Assembly (NCBI GenBank): GCA_025966445.1 | Contig: JAICRP010000005.1 | Span: 1 to 32,143 of the forward strand | Direction: 5' to 3' | Source of the DNA: Nocardioides sp. | GTDB taxonomy: Bacteria; Actinomycetota; Actinomycetes; Propionibacteriales; Nocardioidaceae | DNA: 32,143 nucleotides | Part shown: positions 12,386 to 19,043 of the stretch, piece after piece | Position numbering within the stretch: the first letter of the stretch is position 1 | How the letters are laid out: every line of letters starts with the position of its first letter | Notes under the pieces: generated by a model | Told to the model about the DNA's origin: nothing | What the model saw: only the letters and a program-made list of their open reading frames with translations | Database searches by the model: none | Made by a program: the position numbers and the translations under genes

Positions 12386-13465
12386 TCAGGAGAGGGCGAC
12401 CGTCACTCCGTCGTCCTCGACGCCGTACGTCGTGGTGTAGCCGAACAGGTCCTGCCACTCGGCCCGTTCCCACCACTGGTTGAACGTGCTGGGCACGTTG
12501 AACACCAGGTGCGGCTCCGGACCGGAGTCACGGACGACCCGCGAGACCGCGATCGCGTCCGGGTGCCGGAACGTCGTGCCGTCGCTCGAGAACACCCACA
12601 ACGGGCAGTCGACGGCCTGGACCAGCTCCCGGGAGACGTTGTTGCGGCTGCCGTGGTGGGGCAGCTTGACCAGGTCGAGCGGCACCCGCTCGCCCGCCCC
12701 GAGCAGGGCGAGCCCGCCCAGCAGCTCCGAGGCGGTGGCGTCGCCGGTGAGCAGGGCGCGCTTGCCGTCGTGCTCGAGGACGAGGGCGATGCTCGCGGCG
12801 TTGGCCTTGCTCCCGTCGACCTTGAACGGGTCCTCGCTGAGGAGCGCGAGGTCGACCGCGCTCTCCAACGTGGGGGCGGTGCTCGGTCCCATCGGCTCCA
12901 GCCCGGGGGAGACCTCGGTGAGCGTCCCCTTCTCGAGGGCGGCCGCGACGGCGAGCTGCCACTCGGGGACGAGGTCGGTCAACCGCTCCTGCACGGGCGC
13001 CAGCACGGTGATGGCGAGTCCGTCGGGCAGCTCCACGCGGGGCAGCGTGGTGTCGGTGCGGATCACCGCGGCGCGGCCGAAGGCGTCGTTCCACGCGTGG
13101 TCGCGCAGCCAGGTGGTGAGCAGCTCGCCCTGGACGCCACCCATCGGCTCGAGCTCGGACCGCTCGTCGGCGGGTACGAGTCCGTTGAGGTGCTCCCAGC
13201 CGTTGAACCACACGTCGGCGAACGTCACGGGGACCGGTTCGTCCGGGTCGACCAGGCCCGTCAGGACGCCGCCGATGTGGTCGGTGTCGACGTGCGTGAC
13301 GACCAGCAGCTCGAACGCGCGCTGGTCCTCCGGCAGCGCCCTGAACCGGTCGGCGAGGGCGCGGCCGGTGCCCGAGGTGCCCATGTCGACGAGCAGCTGG
13401 CGGCCCTGGCCCCACCGCACCCAGATCGCGTCGCCCTGGCGGGCGTCGAGGAAGGTCAGCTCCAC
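12386..13465 (-). CDS. ComEC/Rec2-like MBL-fold hydrolase (stand-alone)
   Basis: GTG at 13465: VELTFLDARQGDAIWVRWGQGRQLLVDMGTSGTG...LLVVTHVDTDHIGGVLTG...ALLTGDATASELLG...DLVKLPHHGSRNNVS; ComEC-type HxDxDHxGG, TGD and PHHGS motifs. Confidence 0.88.
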   Translation of the reverse strand: MELTFLDARQGDAIWVRWGQGRQLLVDMGTSGTGRALADRFRALPEDQRAFELLVVTHVDTDHIGGVLTGLVDPDEPVPVTFADVWFNGWEHLNGLVPADERSELEPMGGVQGELLTTWLRDHAWNDAFGRAAVIRTDTTLPRVELPDGLAITVLAPVQERLTDLVPEWQLAVAAALEKGTLTEVSPGLEPMGPSTAPTLESAVDLALLSEDPFKVDGSKANAASIALVLEHDGKRALLTGDATASELLGGLALLGAGERVPLDLVKLPHHGSRNNVSRELVQAVDCPLWVFSSDGTTFRHPDAIAVSRVVRDSGPEPHLVFNVPSTFNQWWERAEWQDLFGYTTTYGVEDDGVTVALS

Positions 13466-14490
13466 TGGTCCTCCCGTCCGGTCACGAGAGCCACCGAGTC
13501 CCAGTCGGTGACACAGGCGTACCCCGCCAGGCGCTCGAGCCGTTCGGCGCGCTCGTCCTTGCGGTCGGCGTCCGGCCAGCGCCGTAGGAGGTCGGTGGCC
13601 AGGGCCATGCCGTCGGTGTAGAGCGGACGCGCCTCGGTCGCCTCCACCAGCAGCCCCAGGCCGCGGGCCCGCTCGCGGGCGTCGCGGTCGTTCATGAGCA
13701 GGGCGGCCAGCAGGATGCGGCCGTCCGGGATCCAGGCGAAGTCGCGGGCGAGGTTCTCGATCCAGTCCTGGCGTTCGCGGAGCCGGCCGTACCGATGGAG
13801 CGTGAGGCCACCGAGCGCGGCGGCCGCCGGGTCGGAGTACTTGCCCAGCAGCAGGCTCGCCGCCTGGTCCAGCAGCTCGGCGCCGGCCATCACCTCGTGG
13901 TGGCGCAGCATCCCGTCGACGGCGCGGCCGACGCGGCGCTGCTCGGTGAAGCGCACGCCGAGCCGGGGGAGGGATGCGCTGAGGTCGAGCTCGACGCGGC
14001 AGGTGGCCTCGTCCTCCTTGCGGCCCTGGGGGTTGAGCGGGAGCGAGGCCGTCCAGTCCCGCCCGTCGAGCCGGTACGTCGCGGTCGGGACGGCGGTGAG
14101 CACCTGGTCGGGGCCGAACGTCCAGCCTCCCGCGTCCTGGGTCAGGAGCGTGCAGGCCGTCGTACCGGTGAGGGTCGCCTCGACCGCGCCGCGCATGCCG
14201 TCGGCGTCGTCCTGCCCGTCGTCGCGTCCGGCGTTCCGGCCGGAGTCCTCGGTGACGACGACGTCGACCGGCGTGGCGGGATCCACGCGTACGAGCTCCA
14301 GCATGCTCCGCCCGCGCGGGGTGACGGCCTCGACGGAGTAGAGGCCGACGGGCAGCGTCATCGCCGGCCCACCCGTGGTGCCGCGCCCGACGACCGTCAG
14401 GGACGCGTCGCGGACGACGAACGGCAGGTTGTTGGTCAGCCACAGCGAGTTGTCCTCGACGCGGACGCTGAGGAGGCCGGTGTCGGTCAC
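13456..14490 (-). CDS. Uncharacterised protein co-operonic with caspase and MBL hydrolase; N-terminal beta-type domain, C-terminal helical region
   Basis: Overlaps the caspase gene by 4 nt and the MBL gene by 10 nt; coherent coding sequence; no recognised family. Confidence 0.75.
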   Translation of the reverse strand: MTDTGLLSVRVEDNSLWLTNNLPFVVRDASLTVVGRGTTGGPAMTLPVGLYSVEAVTPRGRSMLELVRVDPATPVDVVVTEDSGRNAGRDDGQDDADGMRGAVEATLTGTTACTLLTQDAGGWTFGPDQVLTAVPTATYRLDGRDWTASLPLNPQGRKEDEATCRVELDLSASLPRLGVRFTEQRRVGRAVDGMLRHHEVMAGAELLDQAASLLLGKYSDPAAAALGGLTLHRYGRLRERQDWIENLARDFAWIPDGRILLAALLMNDRDARERARGLGLLVEATEARPLYTDGMALATDLLRRWPDADRKDERAERLERLAGYACVTDWDSVALVTGREDQWS

Positions 14491-15635
14491 GGGAACTGCA
14501 CCTCCTCCTTGCAGGCGGGAGGCTGGGCGTTGAGCAGCTTCTTCTTGCGCTGGGGAGCGGCCCCGCCGACGTCAGCCACCAGCTCGTACAGGCCGGCCGT
14601 GGCGCGCAGCCTGAGGGGCCAGCCCGGTTGGACGGCCACCAGCTCGTTGCCGTCCAGCCGGAGCTCCGCCACCGGCAAGGGGTCGAGGTTCGCCGGGTTC
14701 ACCGCCACCTCGATGTCGACCTGCGGTGGCGCGTCGAACTGCTGCACGACGACGTCCAGCGGCTTGCCGGTGAGGTCGACGGACTGGTCGGCGCCCCCGG
14801 CCTGCGCCAGCGCCTTCACCCGTGTCGGCAGCACCAGGCTGAGCCGGCTCGAGGAGACGTGCCAGACGGGACAGGTCTCGTCCTTGCCGACGGCGGCGGC
14901 GCCGCGCAGGGCCCAGAGCAGGGCCTGGGTGAAGATGGTCAGGCCCTGCGGGTCCGCGAACGCGTTCTCGCGCGTCGAGGAGGACAGGAAGACTGGTGAG
15001 GCGGCCACCTCGGCCAGTCCGATGTTGCCGGGCTTGAAGGCTCCCTCGAGGGCCTCGAAGCGCCGGACGATCTCGGGCCGCTGACGGCAGGCGTCGGAGA
15101 ACCAGGCCTGGTGGTCGGCGCCGCCGAACTTGCGCATCGCGTCGTGGCATCCGATCACGTCCATGGCGCCGAAGAGCAGGTCTGGCTCGGCGTCGGTGGC
15201 GAAGTCCTCGAGCAGCACGATCGCGCTCCGCGGGCTGAGCTGGATGCCGTGGCCGACCACGAAGACGAGGGCGCGGTCCGCCGGGCTCGCGCAGGCCTCC
15301 ATGAACGCGGTGAACTCGGCCTTGACCGCTGCACGGGTGGCCGGTGCCGGCTGGCCGCCCATCCTGGCGAGCACGTCGGCGTTCAGCGCCTCCCCGTCGA
15401 CGGGGGAGAGCAGCAGCCGCACGTCCTTCAGCGGCGCCTCTGGGCAGCGGTACTCGTTCAGCAGCCAGGCGGTGAGCTCGGAGGCCGAGCGGGCGGCACT
15501 GCTGAGGTTCGCCAGCCCGAGCTCACCGCCCTTGTCGGTCATCTGCGGTCCGTCGAGGAACGGGTAGTGGCTGACGCCGACCACGAACGCGTGCGTCACC
15601 GCGGGTGCGGCCACCCCCTCGACCTCGATGAGCAT
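14487..15635 (-). CDS. Caspase-like (C14-type) protease
   Basis: HAFVVGVSHYPFLDG, ALVFVVGHGIQLSPRSAIVLLEDF (catalytic His), HQAWFSDACRQRPE (catalytic Cys), FLSSSTRENAFADPQGLTIFTQALLWALRG; caspase p20-like order. GGGAGG RBS before ATG. Confidence 0.85.
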   Translation of the reverse strand: MLIEVEGVAAPAVTHAFVVGVSHYPFLDGPQMTDKGGELGLANLSSAARSASELTAWLLNEYRCPEAPLKDVRLLLSPVDGEALNADVLARMGGQPAPATRAAVKAEFTAFMEACASPADRALVFVVGHGIQLSPRSAIVLLEDFATDAEPDLLFGAMDVIGCHDAMRKFGGADHQAWFSDACRQRPEIVRRFEALEGAFKPGNIGLAEVAASPVFLSSSTRENAFADPQGLTIFTQALLWALRGAAAVGKDETCPVWHVSSSRLSLVLPTRVKALAQAGGADQSVDLTGKPLDVVVQQFDAPPQVDIEVAVNPANLDPLPVAELRLDGNELVAVQPGWPLRLRATAGLYELVADVGGAAPQRKKKLLNAQPPACKEEVQFP

Positions 15636-15721: not shown

Positions 15722-15786
15722 GGATAGTCCGTGACGTAACCGTGGTCGATCGGGCCGAGTGACGACAGTTACGTCACGGACTATCC
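15722..15786. repeat. Long inverted repeat between SRPBCC and caspase genes
   Basis: GGATAGTCCGTGACGTAAC (15722-15740) / GTTACGTCACGGACTATCC (15768-15786), 19/19 bp; extends by 4 more pairs with a bulged C at 15787. Confidence 0.85.
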
Positions 15787-16358: not shown

Positions 16359-19043
16359 TCAGGTCGCGGTGCCACTCCCGTCGACGGTCGCCGGCATCAG
16401 GGCCGCCCGGCGGCGGGCGTCGAGCGGGGACGTCCGGCGGCTGAGCCGCTGGTCGAGCACCTCGGCGGCGCGCTCACCCTGGCCCGAGCGGGCCAGCGCG
16501 TACACCAGCGTGTCCTCCAGCACCTCGCGCTGAGCGGCGCTGCCGCCGAGCACCCCCGTGCGGGGCAGCAGGGTGGTGAGCCGGTCGGCCGCGTCGGCGA
16601 ACTCACCCTCGACGACCTGCTGGAGCGCCCCGCACAGCGGTGCGACGACGTCGCGGAACGCCGGGTCGTGGTGGGCGTGTGCGATGGTGCGCAGCGCCGC
16701 GAGGCCGACCTCGTCGCCCTCGGTCGCCAGGCCCAGGGCGGAGTGCATGGCGGCGAACGCGGTGGGCGGGTTGAGCAGCCACCCGTCGGGAGCCGAGGCG
16801 CAGACCGCCTCGCTGGGCAGGGGGCCCTCCCACGTGCCGGTCACGTGGCAGCGCCAGAGCAGCGCACCGCTGTCGACCAGGGCCCGGGAGCCGGTGACGA
16901 GCGGCGGGGCCAGCTCGCGCTCGTAGCGTCGGCGCACCGCGTCGACGTCGCACTGCATGAGCTCGTGCAGGGCCGCGTGCCACGAGAAGTGCGAGCGGTG
17001 GTTGGCCTCCGGCCCGCGGCTGCGGATCCAGCCGTCGAGCCAGGCGAGACCCTCGGTGTGCTGTCCTGTCTCGTAGTACACGTGGGCGCGGGCGTGCACG
17101 GCGTGGCCGGACGCGGGCTCGACCGAGAGGGCGTACGACGCCAGCTCCTCGGCCTCGCCCCAGCGCTCCTGGTCCTGGCGGACGAACGCCAGCTGGCCGG
17201 CGTACCACCAGTCGTCGCCGTAGGTGCGCCCCAGACCCTCGACGAGCTGGGCGGTCTGGCGGCCGGACGTGAGCCCGCCGAACGCGACGGTGGGGACGGC
17301 GACGCTGACGGCCAGGGCGTCACGAGGGAACAGGCGGATGTGGCGGAGCAGCGCGGCGGCCCCGGTCTCCTCGTCGCTGCGCAACCGGGTGGTCACGGCG
17401 TCGAGGAAGCTCACCTCGCGGTCGTCGAGGTGACGGTCCGCCGCAGCGGCGTGCGCGGCCTGCAGGGCCTGACGCCACGAGCCGACGGCCCCCCACTCGT
17501 GGCCGAGCAGGGCCAGGGCCGCGTGGGCCTGGGCGAAGCCGGGGTCGGCGGCGACGGCCGCCTCGAGCCCCGACTCGACGCCGTCCTGCAGGCAGAGCAG
17601 CCGGCCGAGTGCGCGGTTGTACGCCGTCGCGGCCTTGCGGTTGGTCGTGAGGGTCAGGCCGTAGAGGTCCCCCGGCCGACGACGGGTCTCGCCGTGCAGG
17701 GCTCGTGCCACCGACCGGGCCACGTCGTACGCCTGCTCGCGGATCTCCGGCATCGCCGTCGTCTCCCACAGGTTGCCGCGGCGCAGCGTGCCGATCGCGT
17801 AGAACGGGATGGTCGGGGGAAGCACCCCGAGGACGCGGCCGTCGTCGGCCGTGTCGATGCCCAGGCCGGACGGGCCGGGGCGGACGAGGCCGGTCTGGTT
17901 CAGCGCGGCCAGCAGCGGGTCCTTGGCCGAGGCACCTGTGGGCCCGGTGCAGTTGACGACGCCGGCGACGGCCAGCTCGGTGCCGTCGCTGAGGGTGACG
18001 GCGACGCCGTCGTCGGTCGGTCTCGCCGCCGCGACCGTGCCCGTGTGGCGGGTCCAGCGCCCCGAGGCGTCGATGGCCTCGAGGCGCTCGGCGGTGATGG
18101 GAGGCATCCGGTGGCGGCGTGCGTCCCAGGCCCGGGCGTCGTCGGCGAGGAAGGTACGGCGGTCGTCGTCGGAGAGGCCCCGCCAGAGCTGGGCGGTGAC
18201 GGGGCGCAGCCCGTCGATGGCGGCCCGCCAGTCACCGGTCTCGGCCACGGTCCGCTCGACGTGCGTGACGACGGCGGACCGGAGGTCGTCGAGGGTGTGC
18301 AGCCGGGTGATGCCGGGCGGCGGTGGCACGGGCGGTGTCGTCGGGAGCACGTGGTGAGCCGGCACCACGTCGTGGCGCGAGACCGTGTGCAGCGTGCGGC
18401 CGGGGCGGTCCGCGGCGATCGCGACGTCGACCATCGTCAGTCCGGTGCCGACGAGGAGCAGGTCGCCTTCGGGGAGCTCGTCGGTCCACGGGTCGAGGAG
18501 CCGGCCCGAGGCGGCCAGCTCCTCGGGCGCCCAGTCGGTCCCGGCCTTGGCACCGGGGGCGAGCCCGGCGGCGCGGGCGACGATCGTGGCGCCGTTGGTG
18601 GTGCCGTCGTCGAGGCGCACCACCAGCCGGTCGCCGCGGCGGTCGACGCCGACGACGGACGCCTGGCGGCGGACGAGGCGCGCGTTGGCGGGGTACTCGG
18701 CCGCCGCGCGGAGCAGGCTCTCGATGTAGTCGCCGTAGACGCGGCGGGGGACGAAGTCCTGCGGCTGCGCCTGAGGGTCGTGGTGCTGGCGGACCCAGCG
18801 GTAGAAGTGCTCCGGGTCGCGGGGGAACGCGCTCATGCCGCTCGCCGGGACGTTGAGCAGGTGGCGGTCGTCGGCGGTGGAGTACGCCGTGCCGCGGCCG
18901 GTGCGGGGGGAGGGGTCGACGAGCTCGACCCGGAAGCGCGAGGAGAGTCCCGTGACCAGGTGCGAGGCGGTCAGCGCACCACCGGCGCCCGCGCCGATCA
19001 CCACCACGCAGCAGTCGCCCTCGCCACCGTGCATCGACCCCAC
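16359..19043 (-). CDS. Fusion of FAD/NAD(P)-binding flavoprotein domain and C-terminal TPR/TTC38-like domain (start GTG 19043 or ATG 19034)
   Basis: CVVVIGAGAGGALTASHL (GxGxxG), GRGTAYSTADDRHLLNVPASGMSAFPRDPEHFYRW, LLVGTGLTMVDVA, VVNCTGPTG; then TAYNRALGRLLCLQDGVESGLEAAVAADPGFAQAHAALALLGHEWG and helical repeats to the end. Single uninterrupted ORF. Confidence 0.85.
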   Translation of the reverse strand: MGSMHGGEGDCCVVVIGAGAGGALTASHLVTGLSSRFRVELVDPSPRTGRGTAYSTADDRHLLNVPASGMSAFPRDPEHFYRWVRQHHDPQAQPQDFVPRRVYGDYIESLLRAAAEYPANARLVRRQASVVGVDRRGDRLVVRLDDGTTNGATIVARAAGLAPGAKAGTDWAPEELAASGRLLDPWTDELPEGDLLLVGTGLTMVDVAIAADRPGRTLHTVSRHDVVPAHHVLPTTPPVPPPPGITRLHTLDDLRSAVVTHVERTVAETGDWRAAIDGLRPVTAQLWRGLSDDDRRTFLADDARAWDARRHRMPPITAERLEAIDASGRWTRHTGTVAAARPTDDGVAVTLSDGTELAVAGVVNCTGPTGASAKDPLLAALNQTGLVRPGPSGLGIDTADDGRVLGVLPPTIPFYAIGTLRRGNLWETTAMPEIREQAYDVARSVARALHGETRRRPGDLYGLTLTTNRKAATAYNRALGRLLCLQDGVESGLEAAVAADPGFAQAHAALALLGHEWGAVGSWRQALQAAHAAAADRHLDDREVSFLDAVTTRLRSDEETGAAALLRHIRLFPRDALAVSVAVPTVAFGGLTSGRQTAQLVEGLGRTYGDDWWYAGQLAFVRQDQERWGEAEELASYALSVEPASGHAVHARAHVYYETGQHTEGLAWLDGWIRSRGPEANHRSHFSWHAALHELMQCDVDAVRRRYERELAPPLVTGSRALVDSGALLWRCHVTGTWEGPLPSEAVCASAPDGWLLNPPTAFAAMHSALGLATEGDEVGLAALRTIAHAHHDPAFRDVVAPLCGALQQVVEGEFADAADRLTTLLPRTGVLGGSAAQREVLEDTLVYALARSGQGERAAEVLDQRLSRRTSPLDARRRAALMPATVDGSGTAT

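Follow-up and report, generated by a model that had tools for sequence, protein, structure and literature searches.

A three-gene operon on the minus strand of a 32,143-nt stretch of Nocardioides sp. DNA (the window, which is the whole of contig C128 in an incomplete assembly of 2.8 Mb, 268 contigs and 58% completeness) most probably encodes a divergent actinobacterial form of the Canu (caspase-nuclease) anti-phage system, in which CanAB would unlock the MBL-fold pro-nuclease CanC at two EPMG sites; we assign this reading a probability of roughly 0.85. All activity of the window operon, cleavage and defence included, its trigger and the precise bonds cut are what we infer. The first-pass annotation had proposed a candidate undescribed conflict or defence system, which was incorrect because canu loci were published in November 2025 (Tuck et al., Science 2025; PMC12799240), and the gene order, caspase, middle-protein folds and gated MBL of the window all match them. 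For its broader view, in which a middle adaptor joins a protease and a nuclease in a defence setting, there is good support from the conserved linkage, the intact catalytic residues and the close relation to Canu, except that the two enzymes are probably not parallel effectors; cuts by the caspase in two gating loops are instead predicted to free the nuclease. The operon itself most probably belongs to known Canu, and the new, testable part of this work is a shared cut code together with the exchange of effectors.

The published reference is KaeCanABC of Klebsiella aerogenes, which defends E. coli against T4. KaeCanA resembles MALT1, bears an Ig-like fold at its C terminus and co-elutes with CanB. 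Two insertions with conserved glycines gate CanC, an MBL pro-nuclease that CanAB converts to a nuclease; the system depends on both active sites as well as on both of the predicted cut sites, and phage escape mutants map to the helicase Dda (PMC12799240).

The open reading frames of the window (Table 1) confirmed the gene overlaps reported earlier, of 4 nt between canA-like and canB-like (14487-14490) and 10 nt between canB-like and canC-like (13456-13465). The motifs read from the letters were likewise recovered, VFVVGHGIQL (H129) and FSDACRQ (C183) in the canA-like translation and THVDTDHIGG, LLTGDAT and KLPHHGS in the canC-like translation, the latter matching Pfam Lactamase_B (1.1e-9). Just 5' of the caspase gene lies a perfect 19-bp inverted repeat, GGATAGTCCGTGACGTAAC (window 15722-15740 and 15768-15786, 27-nt spacer), which overlaps the end of the preceding gene, sits within a longer repeat and is an operator or terminator candidate. 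Further along, the large protein encoded at window positions 16359-19043 has a FAD-NAD(P)-binding domain at its N terminus and a TPR-like region at its C terminus.

Table 1. Genes, domains and predicted functional sites of the window operon (window coordinates).
Feature	Position	Strand	Basis or remark
canA-like, caspase (C14)	14487-15635	-	ORF, 382 aa, ATG start
canB-like	13456-14490	-	ORF, 344 aa, GTG start
canC-like, MBL-fold predicted pro-nuclease	12386-13465	-	ORF, 359 aa, GTG start
CanA His129 codon, catalytic	15249-15251	-	Invariant in 85 sequences
CanA Cys183 codon, catalytic	15087-15089	-	Invariant in 85 sequences
CanA C-terminal region, ~residues 290-382	14490-14768	-	Conserved P304, G348, P373
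CanB N-terminal beta-sandwich, residues 1-80	14251-14490	-	AlphaFold2, pLDDT mostly over 90
CanB C-terminal all-helical TPR-like domain, residues 186-327	13510-13935	-	AlphaFold2, pLDDT mostly over 90
MBL metal motif H58xDxDH63	13277-13294	-	Translation and family alignment
Predicted CanA site 1, first insertion, E106-P-M-G109	13139-13150	-	E 38/39, [FLM] 39/39, G 37/39
Predicted CanA site 2, second insertion, E190-P-M-G193	12887-12898	-	E 40/41, [FLM] 41/41, G 40/41
MBL HHGS motif, residues 270-273	12647-12658	-	Invariant in 41 sequences

The window CanA scored above the family cut-off of Pfam Peptidase_C14 (3.7e-7) and matched the PADLOC caspase profile (1.8e-7), and comparison of the CanA family profile with the PDB returned a single match, the MALT1 paracaspase, at a modest E=0.0049. 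The window protein reads VFVVGHG where the family consensus is FYFCGHG, and forms a long branch of uncertain place in the CanA tree, its nearest relative being 27% identical. By position and suitable length, its C-terminal region is a candidate counterpart of the Ig-like domain reported for KaeCanA (PMC12799240).

The canB-like protein had no match in Pfam or NCBIfam. Its AlphaFold2 model comprises a predicted N-terminal beta-sandwich and a TPR-like domain of eight helices, with an unsure middle part; fold matches in the PDB were weak, none falling under E 0.001, with TPR proteins among the best and with Ig/CNA-B-like and CNA-B/carboxypeptidase-type beta-sandwiches as weak matches to the N-terminal domain. 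Several homologues are fused to further domains. In Streptomyces sp. WAC05374 (L077:8235-10247) CanB is joined to a complete ribosomal protein S2 (3.5e-96), another S2 gene is present in that genome, and the fusion is possibly an integrated decoy of a phage target; in Mycolicibacterium peregrinum (L088:8122-11214) it is joined to a full Hsp70, a candidate sensor or decoy domain. Other CanB fusions carry pentapeptide repeats or two trypsins plus PLD, and some CanA-like caspases carry long TPR arrays or a KAP NTPase (examples of both kinds are among L079:8146-10685, L080:8145-13544, L095, L097 and L107:5232-8072).

Comparison of the window MBL with a separate ComEC-like protein encoded in the same genome (G000:C82) located the putative gate, as the same two aligned segments are separated by 140 residues in the former versus ~60 in the latter, and both EPMG motifs fall inside the extra stretch. 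Across the alignment of 39-41 CanCs, both insertions carry the motif E-x-[F/L/M]-G (ExPhiG), the density of which was 6.2 per 1000 aa in CanCs versus 1.1 in shuffles. The conserved glycines are already described in the main text of PMC12799240; the four-residue motif and its duplication are new here. Two actinobacterial relatives of the MBL stand in other contexts. One (L045:5462-6565, 40% to the window) has LDLLG and LDFLG as its two sites and adjoins a 1008-aa ORF that matches no Pfam family and may be a further protease with a code of its own; the frame of the other (L046:6393-9641) continues, as judged by eye, into a CHAT-type (caspase-clan) protein, another MBL-protease pairing.

To determine the distribution of the family, CanB was compared with plasmids by tblastn, which placed it beside a caspase in rhizobia, Streptomyces and Deinococcus, and genomes were scanned for CanA loci using a four-row caspase alignment. 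The scan yielded at least 80 loci in Actinomycetota, Pseudomonadota, Cyanobacteriota, Bacteroidota, Myxococcota, Acidobacteriota, Planctomycetota, Chloroflexota and others, a lower bound from loci chosen by caspase patterns ([LAG][VI]FYFCGH; TH[AV]...) and biased to those motifs. CanB, as detected with our own profiles, lies beside or is fused to the caspase at nearly all loci listed, and at 53 of 71 homologous loci the caspase and CanB genes overlap, in 42 cases by exactly 4 nt. CanA-CanB fusions (L039, L042, L099, L103 and L115) and a CanB-MBL fusion (L117) indicate that the three proteins belong together. The linkage and catalytic residues suggested for checking in the first-pass annotation were both found conserved, the caspase/CanB/MBL set recurring in dozens of loci across phyla; with these invariant residues and recurring overlaps, the three-gene arrangement goes far beyond what chance would give. 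Within the family the window copy is sporadic and divergent: a single-sequence CanB search recovered the window alone, with a detectable CanB in 0 of 58 other relatives and 0 of 396 other genomes of the phylum.

The proposed proximity to defence genes was seen only in part, as some relatives lie near Qat, TrlF or restriction genes, and PADLOC found no defence gene among the tested neighbours of the window, which are ordinary metabolic genes. Such neighbours, together with the common ancestry of the MBL with ComEC, would suit an MBL-protease pair that serves housekeeping or competence rather than immunity. We regard this as very improbable, given that the operon is missing from almost all relatives, that the genome has the separate ComEC-like protein mentioned above, that effectors swap between loci and that the Qat and restriction genes lie near some relatives.

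The exchange of effectors was evident among the 81 CanA loci listed, 39 of which have the MBL and 35 a lipase-like alpha/beta-hydrolase, with none having both (Fisher P=5e-16, a value that overstates the evidence because the loci are related). The two effectors occupy different slots, the hydrolase gene lying 5' of the caspase in 35 of 35 cases and the MBL 3' of it in 37 of 39. Mapping four effector states on the CanA tree required 11 changes, indicating repeated switching; L112, for example, has its MBL in the upstream slot and its CanA within a hydrolase clade (99/93), and the CanA of the hydrolase locus L088 groups with that of the MBL locus L101 (100/98). The hydrolase is similar to B. subtilis lipase A (E=3e-4), has a Ser, a His and several Asp residues that never vary, and had no match in NCBIfam. 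It is rare (0 of 228 other genomes of the same class), and distant copies lie beside caspases in three genomes (L144-L146).

The hydrolase also has two ExPhiG sites (EAFG 72-75 and ESFG 173-176 in L105 of Rubrivivax). In the structural model, site 2 falls in a segment with pLDDT below 50 (170-178), and the low-confidence stretch that holds site 1 averages 58 and adjoins another segment below 50 (79-96). Hydrolases with non-ExPhiG variants change alike at both sites (VALG/VALG of the L125 type, LGMG/IGMG and TPFG/RPYG; TLALS/TLALG in the distant L145). Shuffling of the site pairing gave P<=5e-5 among hydrolases under 70% identity (n=26) and P=6.5e-4 among CanCs (n=21; 0.02 at 50%, n=12), values that are supportive of co-variation in these sequences and not decisive, because identity thinning controls shared ancestry only partly. 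Furthermore, at a few loci an astacin/M12 metallopeptidase takes the place of the MBL or hydrolase, just 5' of the caspase, and tentatively represents a third effector class. The Bradyrhizobium enzymes (L080 and L081) have VEAFGAV and FEAFGAV in the presumed propeptide. In Methylocystis (L110:6175-6984), the astacin gene just 5' of a CanA-like caspase encodes FEAFGVG at 75-78, ahead of an astacin domain from 87 (4.8e-48), a motif that may have another origin because L110 scores above the NCBIfam LegP cut-off.

These observations are consistent with a sequential mechanism. The caspase/paracaspase-like CanA would be kept inactive in complex with CanB, which, with its predicted beta-sandwich and TPR-like domain, is probably a sensor or an oligomerisation scaffold. 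An infection cue would switch CanAB on, and the active complex would cut the locked CanC at E106PMG109 and E190PMG193, in the insertions over the active site; the freed CanC would then degrade DNA, and the infected cell would die or stop growing. Some caspases of bacterial immunity cleave many host proteins, and the catalytic residues of both enzymes are intact here, so the caspase might instead cut host proteins while the MBL cuts nucleic acid, with CanB switching on each. We consider such parallel action improbable, as the effector carries two conserved, co-varying and near-identical short motifs and CanAB activates CanC biochemically in the K. aerogenes system (PMC12799240).

Extending the sequential mechanism beyond the nuclease, it is moderately probable that CanA-CanB is a general caspase switch, with E-x-[F/L/M]-G, or a locally co-evolved variant of it, placed twice in disordered gating segments, marking unrelated pro-enzymes for cleavage. 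The targets would be the MBL nuclease in Canu and, at loci that lack it, the lipase-like alpha/beta-hydrolase or, more rarely and less certainly, the astacin-type metallopeptidase. If this holds, the substrates of the caspase and new effectors would be predictable from sequence alone, hydrolase-caspase pairs described earlier with no mechanism would be caspase-activated pro-lipases, and the arrangement would parallel the activation of different executioners by eukaryotic initiator caspases.

Among known systems, AVAST type I, Hachiman HamMAB and Lamassu have an MBL pro-nuclease with two protease-cut gating insertions, as is predicted for the window operon, and the MBL profiles cross-match: the window MBL scored well with PADLOC LmuA (1.7e-55), Avs1a (3.9e-39) and DRT-MBL and with NCBIfam Avs1a, in addition to ComEC_Rec2 (2.3e-11). 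It is conceivable on these scores that the operon is an AVAST type I or Lamassu variant that lost its NTPase or SMC sensor and took a caspase in place of trypsin. Several points make this descent improbable, since the NCBIfam Avs1a score of 169 bits is far under the cut-off of 420, caspase-CanB-MBL forms a self-contained unit that has radiated separately, and the gating sites are ExPhiG rather than the single conserved Ile of HamM/Avs1a (PMC12799240). Membership of AVAST type I was rejected on that score, with neither trypsin nor STAND NTPase among the nearby genes tested, and that of Lamassu with no SMC-type protein such as LmuB among them. Those systems use a trypsin, fused to a further defence protein, as the activating protease, and their sensor is an NTPase, helicase or SMC protein. 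The two-gene EACC1-caspase system (NCBIfam NF047832; Kaur et al. 2020) shares a weak caspase match (0.00014 for the window, 3.5e-14 for L049); the window reached 21 bits, far under the cut-off of 140, and no EACC1 membrane gene was identified in the operon.

The pairing of caspase and hydrolase as such is already known from Kaur et al. 2020 (PMC7159879), who noted that an alpha/beta-hydrolase gene always adjoins the caspases of VMAP (vWA-MoxR) ternary systems and proposed that the two work jointly. The caspase adjoins such a gene at nearly half of the CanAB loci listed as well. In contrast, the caspase there is usually part of the VMAP protein with MoxR/vWA, the sections of the paper covered here describe no CanB, MBL alternative or cleavage motif, and the window itself has no hydrolase. 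A search of the literature, covering main texts and, for PMC7159879, the same sections, returned no earlier description of the CanB link, the exchange with MBL or the shared two-site motif, and on operons of caspase with hydrolase or astacin only Tuck 2025 (PMC12799240) was directly relevant.

The closest likeness is to Canu itself. NCBIfam has no Canu-named model, and a search among plasmids for the Klebsiella KaeCanABC sequence returned none; because that sequence was not found in the collections searched, homology rests on architecture and shared features, not direct alignment. These comprise the order caspase-CanB-MBL in one operon, a MALT1-like caspase with intact His/Cys, a CanB-type partner with beta-sandwich (Ig-like) and TPR-like folds in the window model, as Ig/TPR folds are reported for canu loci in general (PMC12799240), two MBL insertions each with a conserved Gly, and the lack of an NTPase sensor. 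The window differs in its divergent CanA, in a CanB shorter than in most family members and in a four-residue ExPhiG site that reads identically, EPMG, in both loops. It thereby adds to Canu a divergent actinobacterial form for which two substrate sites are clearly predicted.
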